Shown one piece after another: positions 12,883 to 35,460 of a stretch of DNA of 64,000 bases. The translations under genes and the position numbers were made by a program. The notes beneath the pieces were generated by a model that was given only the letters and a program-made list of their open reading frames with translations, ran no database searches and was not told the origin of the DNA. The stretch comes from Carnobacterium viridans (GTDB taxonomy: Bacteria; Bacillota; Bacilli; Lactobacillales; Carnobacteriaceae), in assembly GCF_900102725.1 (NCBI RefSeq), contig NZ_FNJW01000008.1, positions 1,178,001-1,242,000 of the forward strand, given 5' to 3'. Position 1 is the first letter of the stretch. Each line of letters starts with the position of its first letter.

Positions 12883-15021
12883 TCATTTCTTTTCTGTTTT
12901 TTCATAAGGTTTAAACAATAACTTGTTGTCTTCTGTCAGTATAAGGGCAGCTGAAAATGTTTGACCCGTTTTTTTCTTAAATCCTTTTAAAAGCTGCGTT
13001 TCTCTCGTATTAAGTAACTTTTTAAGTGTTGCTTCAGAAAGTGTTTTCCCTACGTACCTTTTGGGCAAAGTGAAGGTGCAACCATTGCTATAGCCACTAC
13101 AGCCATAAAACTTTCCTTTGTCGATCATCATCTGTCCACAAACTGGACACTTTCCAATTGCCTTCTGCGACAAATGGCTGATACTTTTGGTATGAGTTGA
13201 CCAATCGTTCTTTTCAATAACTTGTGCACTTGAATCTAAGGTATGAGCAATAAATTTTTGAATACTGTCTAAGAAAGCTTGTTGGGTGCCATCTTCATTT
13301 TTAATTTTCTTTAGATAGGTTTCCCACTTAGCCGTCATTTCAGGACTACTTAGAAGGGTATTTTCGACAGCTTGGCACAAGATTTCCCCTTTTTGAGTAA
13401 CCGTCACATTATTTTTTTGAATCTCTATATAGTGCTGCTTTTTAAGGGTTTCTAAAACATTCGCTCTTGTTGCTTCTGTTCCAATACCTTCTGTTGCCTT
13501 TAAGATCTCTTTTTCTTCTTCATTCTCTAATTCTTTGCCGCACGTTTTCATTGCGGTAATCAACGTACCTTCTGTGTAAGTTTTCGGTGGCGAAGTAAAT
13601 CCCTCTGAAGTATTTAGATCTGCTTCTACTGACTCCCCTTTTTTTACTAACGGTAATTCACCAGTTGTTTCTTTATCCGACTTTTTGCTTGCACCATATT
13701 CTAATCGCTGCCAACCTTTATCCAATATCACCTTTCCTTTGCTTATAAACGGAACAGTTTTAATGTCTACAGTGACAGTTGTTTCATCATATTTATAGTC
13801 TGTCTCAAACATAGCCATTGTTCGCTTTAAAATAGTAAAGTAAATTTCTTTTTGAATAGATGGCAGCTTCTCCAATGCTTTTTGTGTAGGTACTTTTTTA
13901 GTTGGAATAATAGCATAATGCTCTTGAACCTTTGAACCGTCTACATAGCGTTTTCGTTTGCTTGTATTTGGCTCTTTAATGGTGTGGTTTAATATACCTT
14001 GATACCCTTCTATTCTTTCTAACAAATACCGAAACTCTGAATCAGTGATGTATCTGCAATCACTTCTGGGATAACTGACTAATTTAGCCTCATAAAGCGA
14101 CTGTACATGTTTCAATGTATCTGAAGGGCTCACCTTATATTTTTTGTTTACTAAACTTTGTAAATCACTTAATGAAAACAGAAATGGCGAAGGCTGTGAT
14201 ATCCTTTTAGTTTCAACAGAAGAAATCACACCAGGATTGCTAGCCAGTAAACCGTGTTTTTTGATTAATTCTTGCAGTTCTTTTTTCGTTGAGAATTTCT
14301 TACTGTACTTGGCTTTAAATAGTCCATTTTCAGCTTTTACTGTTGCATGTAATTCGAAAAATGGTTCTGGAATAAAGTTTTCAATCTGTTTCTGGCGCGT
14401 ATAAATCATATAAAGCGTCGGTGTTTGAACGCGTCCGACACTGAATACTCCTTCGTTGATGCCTTTTTTCTGCAAAGAGAGAGTATACATACGAGATAAA
14501 TTAATCCCCACCAACCAATCACTTATTTGCCGTGTTTGGGCTTCAACGTAGGAAGAATAAAATTCTTTTCCATCTCTTAAATCAGAAAAACCTTTTTGGA
14601 TTTCATCAGATTCAAGTGAATTGATCCATAATCGTTTAATTTCTTTATTCCCCGCTTTTGCCTGATTGATGATCGAACGCGCAATATTTTCTCCTTCGCG
14701 ATCACTATCGGTAGCGATGATGATTTGATCAGCTTCTTTTAACAATTTTTTTACGACATTAAATTGCTTGGCTTTTCCCTGTCCCACTTTAAACTTAAAT
14801 GTTTCTGGAATAATAGGCAGCTCTTTCATGTTCCATTTCTTCCATTCATCCTTGTATTCCTCTGGAGAAGCCAATTCGACTAAGTGTCCAAATCCCCAAG
14901 TAATCACGTCATTAGATGGGTTTAAAACAATATACCCGTCTTTTTTTGAAAATTTTCCAAAAGACTCCGCATAAGCCTGCGCTTGGGAAGGTTTCTCTGC
15001 AAGTATTACTGTATGTCCCAT
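12883..15021 (-). CDS. topB: DNA topoisomerase III
   Basis: The 712-residue type IA topoisomerase changes DNA linking number by single-strand passage. The Toprim domain is at the N-terminus (ILAEKPSQAQAYAESFG, then ATDSDREGENIAR), the region around SYPRSDCRY holds the catalytic tyrosine, and a C-terminal four-cysteine zinc finger starts with CPVCGQMM. ATG 15021 was chosen because GGGAG lies 12 bases before it; the ATG at 15033 touches that site. It is alone between the repeat array and an unrelated gene. No plasmid or conjugation genes flank it, so a chromosomal housekeeping or accessory copy is likely. Confidence 0.9.
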   Translation of the reverse strand: MGHTVILAEKPSQAQAYAESFGKFSKKDGYIVLNPSNDVITWGFGHLVELASPEEYKDEWKKWNMKELPIIPETFKFKVGQGKAKQFNVVKKLLKEADQIIIATDSDREGENIARSIINQAKAGNKEIKRLWINSLESDEIQKGFSDLRDGKEFYSSYVEAQTRQISDWLVGINLSRMYTLSLQKKGINEGVFSVGRVQTPTLYMIYTRQKQIENFIPEPFFELHATVKAENGLFKAKYSKKFSTKKELQELIKKHGLLASNPGVISSVETKRISQPSPFLFSLSDLQSLVNKKYKVSPSDTLKHVQSLYEAKLVSYPRSDCRYITDSEFRYLLERIEGYQGILNHTIKEPNTSKRKRYVDGSKVQEHYAIIPTKKVPTQKALEKLPSIQKEIYFTILKRTMAMFETDYKYDETTVTVDIKTVPFISKGKVILDKGWQRLEYGASKKSDKETTGELPLVKKGESVEADLNTSEGFTSPPKTYTEGTLITAMKTCGKELENEEEKEILKATEGIGTEATRANVLETLKKQHYIEIQKNNVTVTQKGEILCQAVENTLLSSPEMTAKWETYLKKIKNEDGTQQAFLDSIQKFIAHTLDSSAQVIEKNDWSTHTKSISHLSQKAIGKCPVCGQMMIDKGKFYGCSGYSNGCTFTLPKRYVGKTLSEATLKKLLNTRETQLLKGFKKKTGQTFSAALILTEDNKLLFKPYEKTEKK

Positions 15022-15202
15022 TGACTGATACATCTCCCTTACTGCTGTATTTTAGCGGTACCAAACGTCTATTTCTTTCCTTATTTTGGAAGATTCCTCT
15101 TTAAAAGTCAATCTATTAAAAAAATCAAATCAAGTATTTTTACAAAAATTAGAACTACTGAAATAAAGCAATCGTTACTGTAAATGAAGTTTTTCATAAC
15201 TC

Positions 15203-29694: not shown

Positions 29695-29815
29695 CTTACT
29701 TCCATCCTTTCTATGAATCATTACACTATTTAGTATAAAGGAATAAGGATAGAGTATCATGGAATACGTCTTCAATAGTTGAAATGTAGAAAACAATAAT
29801 CGAAAAAAATTTGCT

Positions 29816-29846
29816 AAAAAATACCGTAAAGGATATTAACCTTTAC
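29816..29846 (-). terminator. Terminator of the TerB-C/BrxD/helicase operon
   Basis: GTAAAGG at 29826-29832 pairs with CCTTTAC at 29840-29846; on the minus strand a T-run follows at 29821-29816. Confidence 0.7.
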
Positions 29847-29971
29847 AGCGTTTTAAATAGCATTATAAGTTTATTCGTACTTTCAATAGCGAATCTTTAT
29901 TTACTTAGGCATTTTATACTTCCTCTAGTTTAAGAACATATAAATCCCATATTTTACGCCCAGTTGAACCT

Positions 29972-32053
29972 TTATGCTTCAGTAGAAAAAAAGTTCTTCA
30001 AAATCCACTTTATTTTCAATGTTTTAGGTACTAATTGCATAAATTTTTGATTAATCGTTAATTCTTCGATAACCTTTTCGTTTTTCTCTAAATAAGCTGC
30101 GACCGTATCCAAAGAGCCTTCATTCTTGTTCAACCGTTCCATGATTATTTTCAAATTTGGACCGGTGATCAAAGAATGCTTGTCCTGTAATTGGTATTTT
30201 TCTCCTTCATCCGCAATACTCTTGATAAGCAGCAACAAGGCGATATTGAATCGGGTCCCTTTAAAAGTCACGATTCCAATGTTTGCTTGGTTATCCTCAT
30301 ACCAATAGTTGCCGTTATCATGGAACAGTTCACTTTTCATAAACTCAAAATCTTGATTGATTTTCTCGTTGTTCAAGTTTAAATAGGTCTCATTTTTTAA
30401 CAGCATCTCCATGTTTTCCCGCACTTCATTAGAAACGAATCCTGCATCACTGATAAATTTAGGAGCCTTTCCTTCTGTCGTCTTATCGACCATAATACGT
30501 TTTGCTTTAATGTCTATATCTTTTACATTCCAAACTCTACCTGCCAATAAAATTTTACTTTCGATTTGGATATCCGGTGTAAATGGCAAGCTACCGATTC
30601 GCTCATGCTGGTAATGAACGGAAAAGTCACTGGTTGTCAAAAACATGGCGTAGAACTCTCTGAAGCGTAACATCTGTTCCCCTTCTAAACCCACAATTGC
30701 TTCTTCACCCATGATTTCAATGAACTCTTTTTCTACCATATAATCAATTAGGGTAGCCAAATCGGCATCTGAAATCTCTGCCCATACCGGGAAAAATTTA
30801 TTCATTTGTCTTAATTGCTCTAGTGGTACACTTGTTTTTTGGAAAAGTGTGGCCATAATCTGATGCGCCAATGCATTGTACGGCATCACAATCATTTCCG
30901 TAGCGTCCATTTCTTTTCTTTCCAATAAATCCAAAGCCGAATAAGTTTGCAGCATGTCCCAAGGATCATCTTCCACAATATGTAAGATGCTTTGGTGCGT
31001 TCTACGGCCACTTCTCCCTAAACGTTGGCTAAGAGAAGATGTGGATGGAGGTGAGCTATACTGTACCACGCTATCGACTGTTCCAATGTCTATTCCCAAT
31101 TCTAACGTCGAAGTACAAGTAATCGTAAACAAATCCTGCTCGTTGTTTTTCGCAAAAAATTCTACTTCTTCACGCAAGACTTTATCCACTGATGAGTGAT
31201 GGGCAAAGTAACGAATTGGAAGATTCTCTTTCGTAGCCATTTTTTCCAATTTATGAGTGATTTCTTCTACTTTATTCCGCGAATTTGGAAAAACCAACAT
31301 CGTTTCTTTTTGGGAATACTGATAGATAGCGGCTAAAGATTTTCTTGAAATAAATGGACCTGCTTCGCCACTTGTATAGTCTATTGTAACGAGTAGATCA
31401 TTTTTATCAGAATCTACGAGAATATCTGTGTGGCGATTGCTTCCAAAGAAATTTTTTGCATAACTAAAATCAATCTTGCTTAAGGTTGCGCTCATTGCAA
31501 TGAATCGTGGATTCTGCATGAATAGACTGATCCTCTGTATCAGGGATTGAAGATGAATTCCACGTTCTGTCCCTAAAAAACTATGCAGTTCGTCAATGAT
31601 GATCCATTCTACTCCTTGAAATAGTTGTTGTGCTTCTTCAGAACGATTCACTAGCATGCCTTCAATGGATTCGGGTGTAATCAGTAAAATACCTTTTGGG
31701 TCTTTTATAATCTTTCTTTTTTCTGATTGGGATGCTTCGCCATGCCATCTGGTAATTGGAACATCCAAATACAGACATAATTCGCTAATGCGTTGGAATT
31801 GGTCATTTATTAAAGCTTTTAATGGTGAAATATACACTATTTTAAGTCCAGTATTCCAATCTTCCACACCATTTACTGCTGGAATAAAAGCTGCTTCTGT
31901 TTTCCCGGAAGCAGTCGGCGCAGACAAAATGAGATTATGATCCGTATTAGCGATTTGTTTGATAGAAGCATTTTGTATTCTAGTTAATTTTGACCAGCCT
32001 TTATCGTATATATAATGTTGGATATCTCTTTTCAAACTATCAAAAGCTTGCAT
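29972..32053 (-). CDS. Lhr/BrxHI-like superfamily 2 helicase
   Basis: The 693-residue helicase has motif I APTASGKT (45-52), motif II DELH (154-157), motif III SAT (188-190), TSTLELGIDIG (314-324) and motif VI QRLGRSGR (343-350), which are the marks of the Lhr and BrxHI branch of DEAD/DEAH enzymes. The C-terminal half (about 370-693) has winged-helix and beta-rich parts as in Lhr-type proteins but is shorter than full Lhr. It starts at the last base of the BrxD-like ATPase gene and is the third gene of an operon. A DNA translocase or unwinding role in a DNA-processing complex is inferred. Confidence 0.87.
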   Translation of the reverse strand: MQAFDSLKRDIQHYIYDKGWSKLTRIQNASIKQIANTDHNLILSAPTASGKTEAAFIPAVNGVEDWNTGLKIVYISPLKALINDQFQRISELCLYLDVPITRWHGEASQSEKRKIIKDPKGILLITPESIEGMLVNRSEEAQQLFQGVEWIIIDELHSFLGTERGIHLQSLIQRISLFMQNPRFIAMSATLSKIDFSYAKNFFGSNRHTDILVDSDKNDLLVTIDYTSGEAGPFISRKSLAAIYQYSQKETMLVFPNSRNKVEEITHKLEKMATKENLPIRYFAHHSSVDKVLREEVEFFAKNNEQDLFTITCTSTLELGIDIGTVDSVVQYSSPPSTSSLSQRLGRSGRRTHQSILHIVEDDPWDMLQTYSALDLLERKEMDATEMIVMPYNALAHQIMATLFQKTSVPLEQLRQMNKFFPVWAEISDADLATLIDYMVEKEFIEIMGEEAIVGLEGEQMLRFREFYAMFLTTSDFSVHYQHERIGSLPFTPDIQIESKILLAGRVWNVKDIDIKAKRIMVDKTTEGKAPKFISDAGFVSNEVRENMEMLLKNETYLNLNNEKINQDFEFMKSELFHDNGNYWYEDNQANIGIVTFKGTRFNIALLLLIKSIADEGEKYQLQDKHSLITGPNLKIIMERLNKNEGSLDTVAAYLEKNEKVIEELTINQKFMQLVPKTLKIKWILKNFFSTEA

Positions 32054-33384
32054 CAGTAAACCTCTATTTCGTCATGGTCATCCATGTCTTGTTCCACCAT
32101 GGAAGACTTTCTTCCAAAGCGCTCAGTAAGAATTTGAGTAAAGGAGTACTCCTGGTTTTGACGTAGTAGAGATAAAATTTCAATATAATCTTTAATAACC
32201 GCACGCGGTGTCAAGAAAGCCTCTGCACCTGGACGGTTTAACTGTGATTCCATGTATTCTTCAATATCGCCATCCTTTACAACTAAAGCCGTTTGATTAG
32301 CGACATTGTATATTTCCGACAGCTTTTTCAACAGAATAAAAATTTCTTCAGGCGTCAGTGGTTTCAAATCGATTACGGTACTGTTTACATTAATATAAGC
32401 TTTGTTTTTCATCAGTTCATTACCAAATCGAGTCTTCAATGCACCGTAGCTTGCTAATCCTCTTCGCTCATCATAAACCGTATTTTTTGTTGCTCCAAAA
32501 TTGATGAACAAGCCTTTTGCTTCATTGGTTTTAGTTTCGTTGTATAAATTAAGGATCATCTCGTAATTTTTTTCCCGTGTCAACGATCGAGGTAATTTGT
32601 ACAAATTAACGGATTCATCAAAATTGATGACAAATCCTTTATAACCAATTTTCAAAAACAATTCTGCTAGATTTTTTAATGCAATCAGATAATTCGAATC
32701 ATTGATGACATTTTTGATGCCTAATTCTTTAGAAGCTTCGGTTTTGGTCGTGATATCCCCGCGAATCCAGCGAATAGCTTCGATTTGGAGAGAAACATTG
32801 TCTTCTGCAACTCCTTCAAAATACTTCATCAGCGCTTGGCCAAACTCATAGGATAACCCCGATGAGTAGAAAGAATTCGTTGTCTTCAAAATGACATTCT
32901 CCACTAATTTCCAATTGCCTCTTTCAAGTAGTTCCGGAACACTGAGGTTGTTTTCTTCAGCAATCTGTTCAAGCAACCCTTGGATCCATTGTTGGACAAT
33001 CGTTTCGATGGCATTCCCATTGCGGTTGTTCTTGATTGTTATTTTATTGACGACTTCATTATAAAGCGCTAATGCTTTTCCTGACGAATCATAAAAACGG
33101 CGTGTCGGAGTTAAATCAATGGTGGATACCACGAAATTCTTTTGAAGTGCTAACGATTCGATCGTCCGCAAAACGAAACTTTTTCCAGATCCAAAATCCC
33201 CCACCCAAAAACGCAAGTCACTATTGCCGTCTTCTAATTTTTGTAAGGTAGCAATGATTTCCTCGACCTCATGGCTTCTCCCCACCAGCACGTGCTGTAC
33301 TCCTTTGATCGGAACAACACCTGCTTCCAAAGAGTCAATAATGTCCTGGGCATCCTTTTTTCTCAGTTTCTTTTCAACCATCAA
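32053..33384 (-). CDS. BrxD-like P-loop ATPase (DUF2791 family)
   Basis: The 443-residue ATPase has Walker A GDFGSGKS (62-69) and Walker B FVINFDE (251-257). The N-terminal run DAQDIIDSLEAGVVPIKG resembles the start of BrxD proteins of BREX phage-defence systems (DUF2791 family), which are AAA-like ATPases. Other BREX genes (pglX, pglZ, brxC) are not in the window. It overlaps the end of the TerB-C gene by 11 bases and the helicase gene by 1 base, so the three proteins are probably made together. The C-terminal winged-helix-like part is typical of DNA-binding ATPases. Confidence 0.85.
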   Translation of the reverse strand: MMVEKKLRKKDAQDIIDSLEAGVVPIKGVQHVLVGRSHEVEEIIATLQKLEDGNSDLRFWVGDFGSGKSFVLRTIESLALQKNFVVSTIDLTPTRRFYDSSGKALALYNEVVNKITIKNNRNGNAIETIVQQWIQGLLEQIAEENNLSVPELLERGNWKLVENVILKTTNSFYSSGLSYEFGQALMKYFEGVAEDNVSLQIEAIRWIRGDITTKTEASKELGIKNVINDSNYLIALKNLAELFLKIGYKGFVINFDESVNLYKLPRSLTREKNYEMILNLYNETKTNEAKGLFINFGATKNTVYDERRGLASYGALKTRFGNELMKNKAYINVNSTVIDLKPLTPEEIFILLKKLSEIYNVANQTALVVKDGDIEEYMESQLNRPGAEAFLTPRAVIKDYIEILSLLRQNQEYSFTQILTERFGRKSSMVEQDMDDHDEIEVY

Positions 33385-35191
33385 TCCATTCCCTCATTTC
33401 TTCCATAAAATCTTCTTCAATAATAATTTGGTGTTGATAAATTGTTAGTACTTGATCATCAAATACATCGTATAAAATTTCATTTAGTTCATTAAGATAG
33501 GCTTGATAAAGCTTACCTTTTTTAGCAGCTTGTTGTTTAAACTCTTCTAAAGATAGTCCATTGTTTCGCACTAAATAGCTCAAGAATGCCATTTGGTCCG
33601 ATGGTTGGCTTGCTTCTTGTTCCTCCGCTTCTGCTAAACTAGAGACAGACACAGCATGACTAGATTCCAACTGCTTTGTTGCCAACACGTTCTCCTTGTG
33701 AAAAAGAGGGTTAGAAACTGTATCTGGATTTATTTCTTCTTCACCCAAATAATCATCTACCCTATCAATGATAGCATATAGCGCAGAATTGGATGCGGTG
33801 ATTAATTCATTGTCCAACTTGATTTTTCTTCGTGCCGGCTGTGCTAGTTTATCCAACAGTGCTGGCAGATTTTCGTACACTAACTCTTTGGCACTCAACA
33901 ACTCTTGGTACTCTTCTTGTCGAGTTGAATGAATAAATTCATCACGTTGCTTTTGTTGTGCTTTTATTAATGGCAATGCCCTCTTCTCCATTAAGAAAAT
34001 AACTAGTCTGTGTTTATTCGAATCCGTGCTGTTTTTGATGACTTTAGTGCCTATTTTTTTCAAATCTGGATCTTTGGCTATATCTACAAGAAACTTACTA
34101 ACACTTTCAAATGGTTGATCAATAATAAAATTAGCCGCTTCATTCCATGCAGTCTTGTACACCGTTCTCAAACTCATTATGGTCGGGTAGTCAAAATCTA
34201 ATTCCGTTTTTGTATCTAGATACGCTTGAATTTTCTGAACCGTTTTTTTCGGCAGATATTGCTGCAAGCTTTGCCAGCTCTGTTCATCTGCTGCCAATCG
34301 AAACCCTTCGATTTCTTTGCGAATGCTGTTTTCAGCGAGTAGATAGAGATCCGTTGGCAGACTGTTTGTTTCTTTCCAGATACGAACATCATATAATGGC
34401 AAACGAAAGAATTGTCTGAAATAATTATTTGGTTTTACTTTCCACTTAATCGTTTCATCTTCTAAATCAGCTAATACAATGTGCAACAAGTCTGCATACT
34501 TCTCCAAACAAAGAGTCATCAAAGCTGGAACTTCCGTAAATTTAGTGACTCGTTTGTTTACACGATTAAAATAGTCCATTTGTATACTTTCAAATGCCTG
34601 TTTATTCCGTAACTCTCCTGAAGGATCCCACCAGATAATTTTTGTGCCAAAGGAGGTTAATTTATATTCTTCTCTCGTTTCTTCATCCGGAAAAGGAAGA
34701 CTTTCGCGGCATTCATCGATTTCTTTTCTCACTAACAAACAAATCTCACTAGCTAGCATGGATTCCAACACAAATGAAATAAAACTAGTCGCTTCTTTAT
34801 CCTCTTGTCTATAAAAGGAAGTAACTACATTTCTAGCTACCCGATAGATTTCGTCAATAGCAGATTCTCGAGAGTAGTAATAAGTAGCCTTCACATATTT
34901 GATATTTTGATGCCGTTTTTTCAATTCCACATCTACAACATCACACACTCTGTTAAATAATGCTTCAATTTCCTGTTCTACTTGATAGGTAAAATCATCA
35001 TTAAATCTTATATATGGTGTAATGTAACTGAGCCAGGCTTGTTTAACAGCCCTCCTAGAATGTTTTTTTTCTACAATAACATCTCTTGGATTAATAAACG
35101 ATTCTTCATTATCTACTAACTCGATGATGGAGAGTTTTTGTTGTTCAGTTAATTGCTTTTTTTGAAATAAATTGTTTAGAAATTCAAACAT
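33374..35191 (-). CDS. TerB-C domain protein, 605 residues
   Basis: The N-terminal two thirds are helical and rich in charged residues; two short segments (EAIRKEIEG-like and TTYYYSRE-like) are reminiscent of TerB-N proteins, but I could not confirm the domain. The last 65 residues (from about 540) match the TerB-C pattern: FLSYLVRNNGLSLEEF, then LNEILYDVFDDQVLTI and a closing IIEEDFMEEM. TerB-C proteins occur with helicases and ATPases in predicted DNA-processing stress systems. AAGGTGGAG precedes ATG 35191. First gene of the operon, behind a good promoter. Confidence 0.75.
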   Translation of the reverse strand: MFEFLNNLFQKKQLTEQQKLSIIELVDNEESFINPRDVIVEKKHSRRAVKQAWLSYITPYIRFNDDFTYQVEQEIEALFNRVCDVVDVELKKRHQNIKYVKATYYYSRESAIDEIYRVARNVVTSFYRQEDKEATSFISFVLESMLASEICLLVRKEIDECRESLPFPDEETREEYKLTSFGTKIIWWDPSGELRNKQAFESIQMDYFNRVNKRVTKFTEVPALMTLCLEKYADLLHIVLADLEDETIKWKVKPNNYFRQFFRLPLYDVRIWKETNSLPTDLYLLAENSIRKEIEGFRLAADEQSWQSLQQYLPKKTVQKIQAYLDTKTELDFDYPTIMSLRTVYKTAWNEAANFIIDQPFESVSKFLVDIAKDPDLKKIGTKVIKNSTDSNKHRLVIFLMEKRALPLIKAQQKQRDEFIHSTRQEEYQELLSAKELVYENLPALLDKLAQPARRKIKLDNELITASNSALYAIIDRVDDYLGEEEINPDTVSNPLFHKENVLATKQLESSHAVSVSSLAEAEEQEASQPSDQMAFLSYLVRNNGLSLEEFKQQAAKKGKLYQAYLNELNEILYDVFDDQVLTIYQHQIIIEEDFMEEMREWIDG

Positions 35192-35236: not shown

Positions 35237-35265
35237 AGTATACGGCTACTGACAGGTAGATTCAA
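35237..35265 (-). promoter_or_regulatory. Promoter of the TerB-C operon
   Basis: On the minus strand -35 TTGAAT (35265-35260) and -10 TATACT (35242-35237) have a 17-base spacer, about 40 bases before the start codon. Confidence 0.65.
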
Positions 35266-35299: not shown

Positions 35300-35323
35300 T
35301 TTCTATTAATGTCCTAATAGAAA
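35300..35323. promoter_or_regulatory. Operator-like palindrome upstream of the TerB-C promoter
   Basis: TTTCTATTA at 35300-35308 and TAATAGAAA at 35315-35323 form a perfect 9-6-9 inverted repeat 35 bases upstream of the -35 box. It has no T-run, so it is more likely a protein-binding site than a terminator. The binder is unknown. Confidence 0.45.
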
Positions 35324-35460
35324 AGTACAGACCACTAATTTGTCTGACTATTACAATGACCAAAAATCGAAAAAAACGCTTAATATCAGTATAACTTCTT
35401 CTTTGCTTATGATATGATTGTCATAACTATGTGTACTAGAAAATAAAACAGGGGGTAAAT

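Follow-up and report, generated by a model that had tools for sequence, protein, structure and literature searches.

What does a compact operon of three overlapping genes, encoding a TerB-like protein, an ATPase and a helicase, do in Carnobacterium viridans? The operon lies at positions 29972–35191, on the minus strand, of the 64 000 nucleotide stretch analysed here (the window; from contig NZ_FNJW01000008.1). A preliminary description of the same DNA had proposed a role in phage defence or DNA repair and had added that the trio may be undescribed. From the sequences of its proteins, the operon, sngABC, is almost certainly a Shango system. As the combination of a TerB-like protein with an ATPase and a DEAD/DEAH helicase defines Shango, which has already been published, the suggestion that it may be undescribed fails. 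The type of system is known, and the SngA found here is a divergent, faster-changing one.

The open reading frame (ORF) list gives the transcription order sngA, sngB, sngC. The 605 amino acid product of sngA (33374–35191, minus strand) has a C-terminal TerB-C domain at residues 447–599, where Pfam TerB_C scored 38.6 bits against a cut-off of 26.3; failure to match TerB-C models, put forward in the preliminary description as a refutation, was thus not seen. sngB (32053–33384, minus strand) encodes a BrxC/BrxD-family AAA+ ATPase that is covered almost entirely by Pfam BrxC_BrxD (395.2 bits), with Walker A (GDFGSGKS) at residue 62 and Walker B (VINFDE) at residue 252. It would be 443 amino acids long from the TTG at 33384, but the ATG at 33381 is more likely to be the start because the SngB of relatives has the resulting length of 442 amino acids. 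The choice of start sets the overlap with sngA at 8 or 11 bases, and sngB and sngC overlap by one base (TGATG). sngC (29972–32053, minus strand) encodes a 693 amino acid superfamily 2 (SF2) DEAD/DEAH helicase of the SngC/BrxHI kind, with Pfam DEAD and Helicase_C domains and intact motifs starting at residues 45 (APTASGKT), 154 (DELH), 188 (SATL) and 343 (QRLGRSGR). The overlapping genes, their domains and the intact ATPase and helicase motifs are therefore as first described. The G+C content of the trio is 0.37, compared with 0.35 for the window.

When PADLOC models were used, SngB and SngC were the best matches of the second and third proteins, at E values of 1.1e-140 (467.7 bits, versus 156.6 for BrxD) and 8e-182 (604.7 bits, versus 378.6 for BrxHI). 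The SngA model matched the first protein at 1.5e-19, over model positions 218–527 of 528. A TerB-domain SngA, an SngB and an SngC in a contiguous three-gene operon were thus all found; TerB_N was not, and the profile check that had been proposed for it (PF13208) gave no match at E ≤ 1. SngC has been placed in one group with BrxHI, DruE and DpdJ (PMC12278908). The BrxC_BrxD and BrxHI scores would also suit a reduced type 2 bacteriophage exclusion (BREX) system that has retained only BrxD and BrxHI. We consider this very improbable. The SngB and SngC models are ahead by approximately 311 and 226 bits, distant taxa and an archaeal plasmid also have the TerB-containing trio, and PglZ, already said to be absent from the window, had no match in the whole assembly (it was found in 2 of 14 control genomes). 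SngB also scored 156.7 bits against NF033438, the NCBI equivalog for BrxD, well short of the cut-off of 350. By eye, no PglX methylase, BrxC or PglW was recognised among the window ORFs, though no genome-wide search for these was made. The TerD-family protein expected of a Ter (tellurite) operon (PF02342) likewise had no match in the assembly.

The published account of Shango describes three genes, the products of which have TerB, ATPase and helicase domains; the system lowered plating 10–100-fold for many, though not all, of the Pseudomonas phages against which it was tried, and liquid cultures were protected as well (PMC10250203). It also states that Shango is found in E. coli, where two phages were modestly inhibited (PMC10250203). 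The guess that the trio serves in phage defence was therefore right. No paper on the mechanism of Shango was found among the matches listed in our literature searches. On balance, and with modest confidence, we favour a Shango system in which SngB loads or switches SngC on phage DNA, SngA is an adaptor and replication is blocked. SngB would form a BrxD-like oligomer, which would load or switch the SngC helicase on invading or replicating phage DNA, with the TerB-C protein SngA deciding when or where; unwinding or translocation by SngC would then block replication of the phage DNA. The Pfam scan found no nuclease domain in SngA, SngB or SngC, so host nucleases would complete the job or blocking alone would be enough. 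BrxD has been described as an ORC–Cdc6-type AAA+ ATPase and proposed to load or activate BrxHI (PMC12839542, in the main text of which neither Shango nor TerB occurs). By homology, we infer that SngB loads SngC and that SngA directs or senses; DNA as the target is likewise inferred. What our own analysis shows is profile membership, gene order, intact motifs, patchy distribution, the defence neighbours of relatives and the fast change of SngA.

SngC (E ≤ 1e-60) was detected in 5 of 59 genomes, namely four of the six of the genus (C. viridans included), none of 12 others in the family and 1 of 41 others in the order. SngB (E ≤ 1e-40) was likewise present in four of the six and none of the 12. 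This is not the pattern of a fixed core chromosomal locus, the second finding that had been named as a refutation. All four carriers in the genus have the order sngA-sngB-sngC and adjoin the same degV. In one genome without the operon (G003), the matches to the aldo-keto reductase and to degV lie approximately 250 bases apart, forming a near-clean empty site at which homology to the window ends at 29797 and resumes at 35372, with approximately 60 unmatched bases between. A second (G005) has approximately 875 unmatched bases at the site, including a 195 amino acid ORF. The empty site may reflect either loss of the operon or a site that was never filled. In G002, the aldo-keto reductase gene and sngC are approximately 30 kb apart (L021:2797 to L022:11848), with genes between them that, by eye, serve mostly sugar transport and metabolism; the interval between these two genes is therefore variable within the genus.

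Relatives of SngC (E ≤ 1e-40) were present in 683 of 72 556 plasmid records, of which 542 were typed conjugative and 596 were from Klebsiella or Salmonella; only 10 of the 683 matches extend over 80% of the query, and other helicases of the same kind may be among them. Three of five plasmids inspected carry a complete trio. The fourth has relatives of sngB and sngC, with its upstream stretch outside the search for sngA, and the fifth has sngC and a partial sngB at the edge of the record. Directly after the Shango of a haloarchaeal (Natrinema) plasmid (L112:8400-13737) come genes with the annotations metallophosphoesterase, SMC-family ATPase and NurA, an arrangement that would fit DNA-end processing. 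None of the viral contigs, scanned with SngB for close relatives only, gave a match, and 2 of 50 697 phage records contained an SngC relative (E ≤ 1e-20), so there is no sign that Shango is phage-borne.

These distributions bear on a different explanation, that the trio is a DNA-repair or stress module, not mainly anti-phage, whose TerB-C protein, ATPase and helicase process damaged chromosomal DNA. The genes annotated beside the Natrinema copy suit this explanation, as does the position of the operon next to degV in every carrier in the genus, with synonymous divergence (dS) like that of its neighbours. We nevertheless judge it distinctly unlikely, given that SngC is missing from two of the six genomes of the genus and all 12 others of the family, that relatives occur on many conjugative plasmids and beside defence genes, and that Shango acted against phages in the published plaque tests (PMC10250203).

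Across the order, SngB (E ≤ 1e-40) was found in 23 of 295 genomes, in 13 at identities of at least 53% and in 10 at 34–37%. The SngA model matched 23 of 398 genomes of the phylum, and an SngB relative adjoins SngA in all 23 (in G523 in pieces). Excluded from the Shango counts were 21 of 32 loci, archaeal helicase loci of 27–34% identity with no SngA or SngB relative. The closest set outside the genus comprises 11 Trichococcus-type loci (one from a record labelled Sedimentibacter), all with the A-B-C order and at another genomic place, which share 87–89% identity with the window in SngB and 80–82% in SngC; L031 has its sngA, and L036 its sngC, split into two ORFs. Genus g33 of family f4 is taken as Trichococcus because coordinates match, for example those of L034 and G273. 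In a midpoint-rooted tree of 26 chosen SngB sequences, 13 on each side, this genus groups with the window genus (family f1; support 0.946), apart from the other genera of f4. This grouping may be due to either horizontal transfer or differential loss; several genomes gave only distant matches or none to the core genes used as yardsticks for transfer (LuxS and NagA-like). Literature searches returned no paper on Shango in Trichococcus among the matches listed.

The link to defence islands that the preliminary description had proposed to survey does not hold for the window but does for relatives. CRISPR-like arrays, defined as four or more repeat copies, are present in 5 of the 11 Trichococcus-type loci (L029, L031, L032, L037, with four copies, and L038), in each case ending within approximately 2 kb of sngA, and in none of six stretches from the window genus or six others from the order. 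L029 contains cas1 and cas2 in addition to its array. In L118, from another genus, relatives of GmrSD and type I R lie upstream of Shango and a BnzB-matching protein lies downstream.

Antitoxin genes were also seen near Shango. In three Trichococcus-type loci it is flanked by HicB-like antitoxin genes (L029:5870-6298, L032:10589-11110 and L038:5744-6265; three of the three such candidates scanned), and in a fourth by a Phd/YefM antitoxin gene (L036:438-770). Divergent sngB-sngC-sngA sets from two genomes of a further genus (L114:922-8927 and L115:3606-9381) are near degV genes that are 65% and 63% identical to that of the window; there Shango is downstream of degV, and in the window it is upstream. 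The recurrence of degV could be chance or a shared insertion region. A role for degV as a defence hotspot was not supported, as 13 further neighbourhoods yielded one type I specificity gene, the rest being read by eye only.

SngA is the unusual member of the trio. TerB_N was present in 8 of the 10 SngA proteins of a first Pfam scan (absent from L027 and L028) and in 2 of 6 in a second (L118 and L119). On the side of the SngB tree that holds the window, where support is mixed (0.358 at one node), 7 of 13 SngA partners were scanned (the window, L027, L028 and L114–L117) and none had TerB_N; on the other side, all six of the 13 that were scanned had it. The window SngA aligned with those of L114–L117 along most of its length (E 2e-23 to 5e-11). 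Among 18 SngA proteins of the other branch, two reached E < 1e-3, L083 at residues 307–598 of the window protein (3e-6) and L091 at residues 505–601 (8e-4), and none had a significant match to residues 1–217. A profile–profile comparison of 11 with 13 SngA proteins aligned 78 C-terminal columns with a probability of 90.5.

The other carriers in the genus are 66–77% identical to the window in SngA, 92–95% in SngB and 86–92% in SngC, at similar dS. In three genome pairs the ratio of nonsynonymous to synonymous divergence (dN/dS) was 0.17–0.27 for SngA, which is higher than the ratio for SngB (0.035–0.049) or SngC (0.052–0.081) by a factor of 2.4 to 5.7. As yardsticks, DegV and the aldo-keto reductase gave 0.047–0.082 and LuxS 0.044 (one pair). 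We suggest tentatively, and with some doubt, that a Lactobacillales branch of Shango (five sampled genera) has replaced or remodelled SngA, losing TerB-N and in some cases adding TM2, and that its conserved SngB–SngC motor is driven by a fast-changing, phage-recognising SngA. If this is true, SngA would be the exchangeable specificity subunit of Shango. The contrast between a fast SngA and a slow SngB and SngC offers a direct and testable hint as to the subunit that meets the phage, and the analysis as a whole names three genes, gives them a testable function and shows an SngA type without TerB_N.

The same features invite an abortive or signalling explanation, in which phage DNA is sensed by SngB and SngC, and the effector that halts the cell is SngA, which in some relatives would be tethered to the membrane through TM2. 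An N-terminal TM2 is above the Pfam cut-off in four SngA relatives, together with TerB_N in L101 and L118 and without it in L116 and L117, and below the cut-off in L027, which also lacks TerB_N; SngA is, moreover, the fastest-evolving member of the trio. However, the window SngA has no TM2 and TerB_C is its sole Pfam domain, and we think this explanation rather unlikely.

Several observations weigh against the favoured reading, in which SngB loads SngC under the direction of SngA. The window yielded neither an integrase nor a further recognised defence gene (ORFs by eye, and PADLOC on only eight other proteins), and no CRISPR-like array. The constancy of the operon beside degV within the genus, at neighbour-like dS, would suit a housekeeping role too. 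The PADLOC match to SngA starts at residue 218 and covers positions 218–527 of 528 only. A neighbouring ZinT-like protein has likewise raised dN/dS values (0.14 and 0.20), and all dN/dS values are below 1, which therefore indicates weaker constraint, positive selection not being shown. AlphaFold2 models had a mean predicted local distance difference test score of 55.7 for SngA (8 sequences) and 48.1 for SngC (12 sequences), and therefore no fold backs the roles assigned to these two. Profile searches of the PDB returned no match for SngA (E ≤ 1) or SngB (E ≤ 0.01) and 71 sequences for SngC (E ≤ 1e-5), the best being 5v9x, 'ATP-dependent DNA helicase'.

Of the control elements described initially, the promoter fared best. 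The probable sngABC promoter (TTGAAT-17-TATACT; 35237–35265, minus strand) scores 9/12 and both hexamers are identical in all four aligned genomes, though promoter-like sites are not above chance in number (16 found versus 19.2 expected). A terminator-like hairpin downstream of sngC (29823–29849, minus strand) has its suitable position as support; such hairpins numbered 4, versus 3.4 expected from shuffles, which is not above chance. The palindrome at 35300–35323, further upstream of sngA than the promoter, was dropped as an operator as it is not kept in the other three aligned genomes. The remaining window ORFs were read by eye as transport, sugar and regulatory genes. PADLOC on the eight other proteins gave a DpdF match for one, weak matches for another, a regulator, and none for six. 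The DpdF match (1.3e-87) is to a topoisomerase III-like gene at 12883–15033, presumably through a topoisomerase part of that long model, and does not speak for a Dpd system.

The closest known systems are the Shango systems of Pseudomonas aeruginosa PA14 and E. coli, the latter reportedly studied by Millman et al. in 2022. The window operon resembles them in its TerB-type protein, BrxD-like ATPase and SF2 helicase, in the order A-B-C, but its SngA has no detectable TerB_N, and its surroundings are metabolic genes instead of a defence hotspot. Against the 18 SngA proteins of the other branch, a set without those of PA14 and E. coli, the likeness detected in its SngA is confined to the C-terminal part. 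The BrxD–BrxHI pair of type 2 BREX is a homologous adjacent ATPase and helicase, from which the window differs in having no PglZ in the assembly, a TerB-C partner and much lower scores to the BREX models. Hachiman (HamAB), Druantia (DruE) and Dpd (DpdJ) are, like the window trio, defences centred on an SF2 helicase; unlike them, the trio has no nuclease partner in the Pfam scan and combines its helicase with separate AAA+ ATPase and TerB-C subunits.

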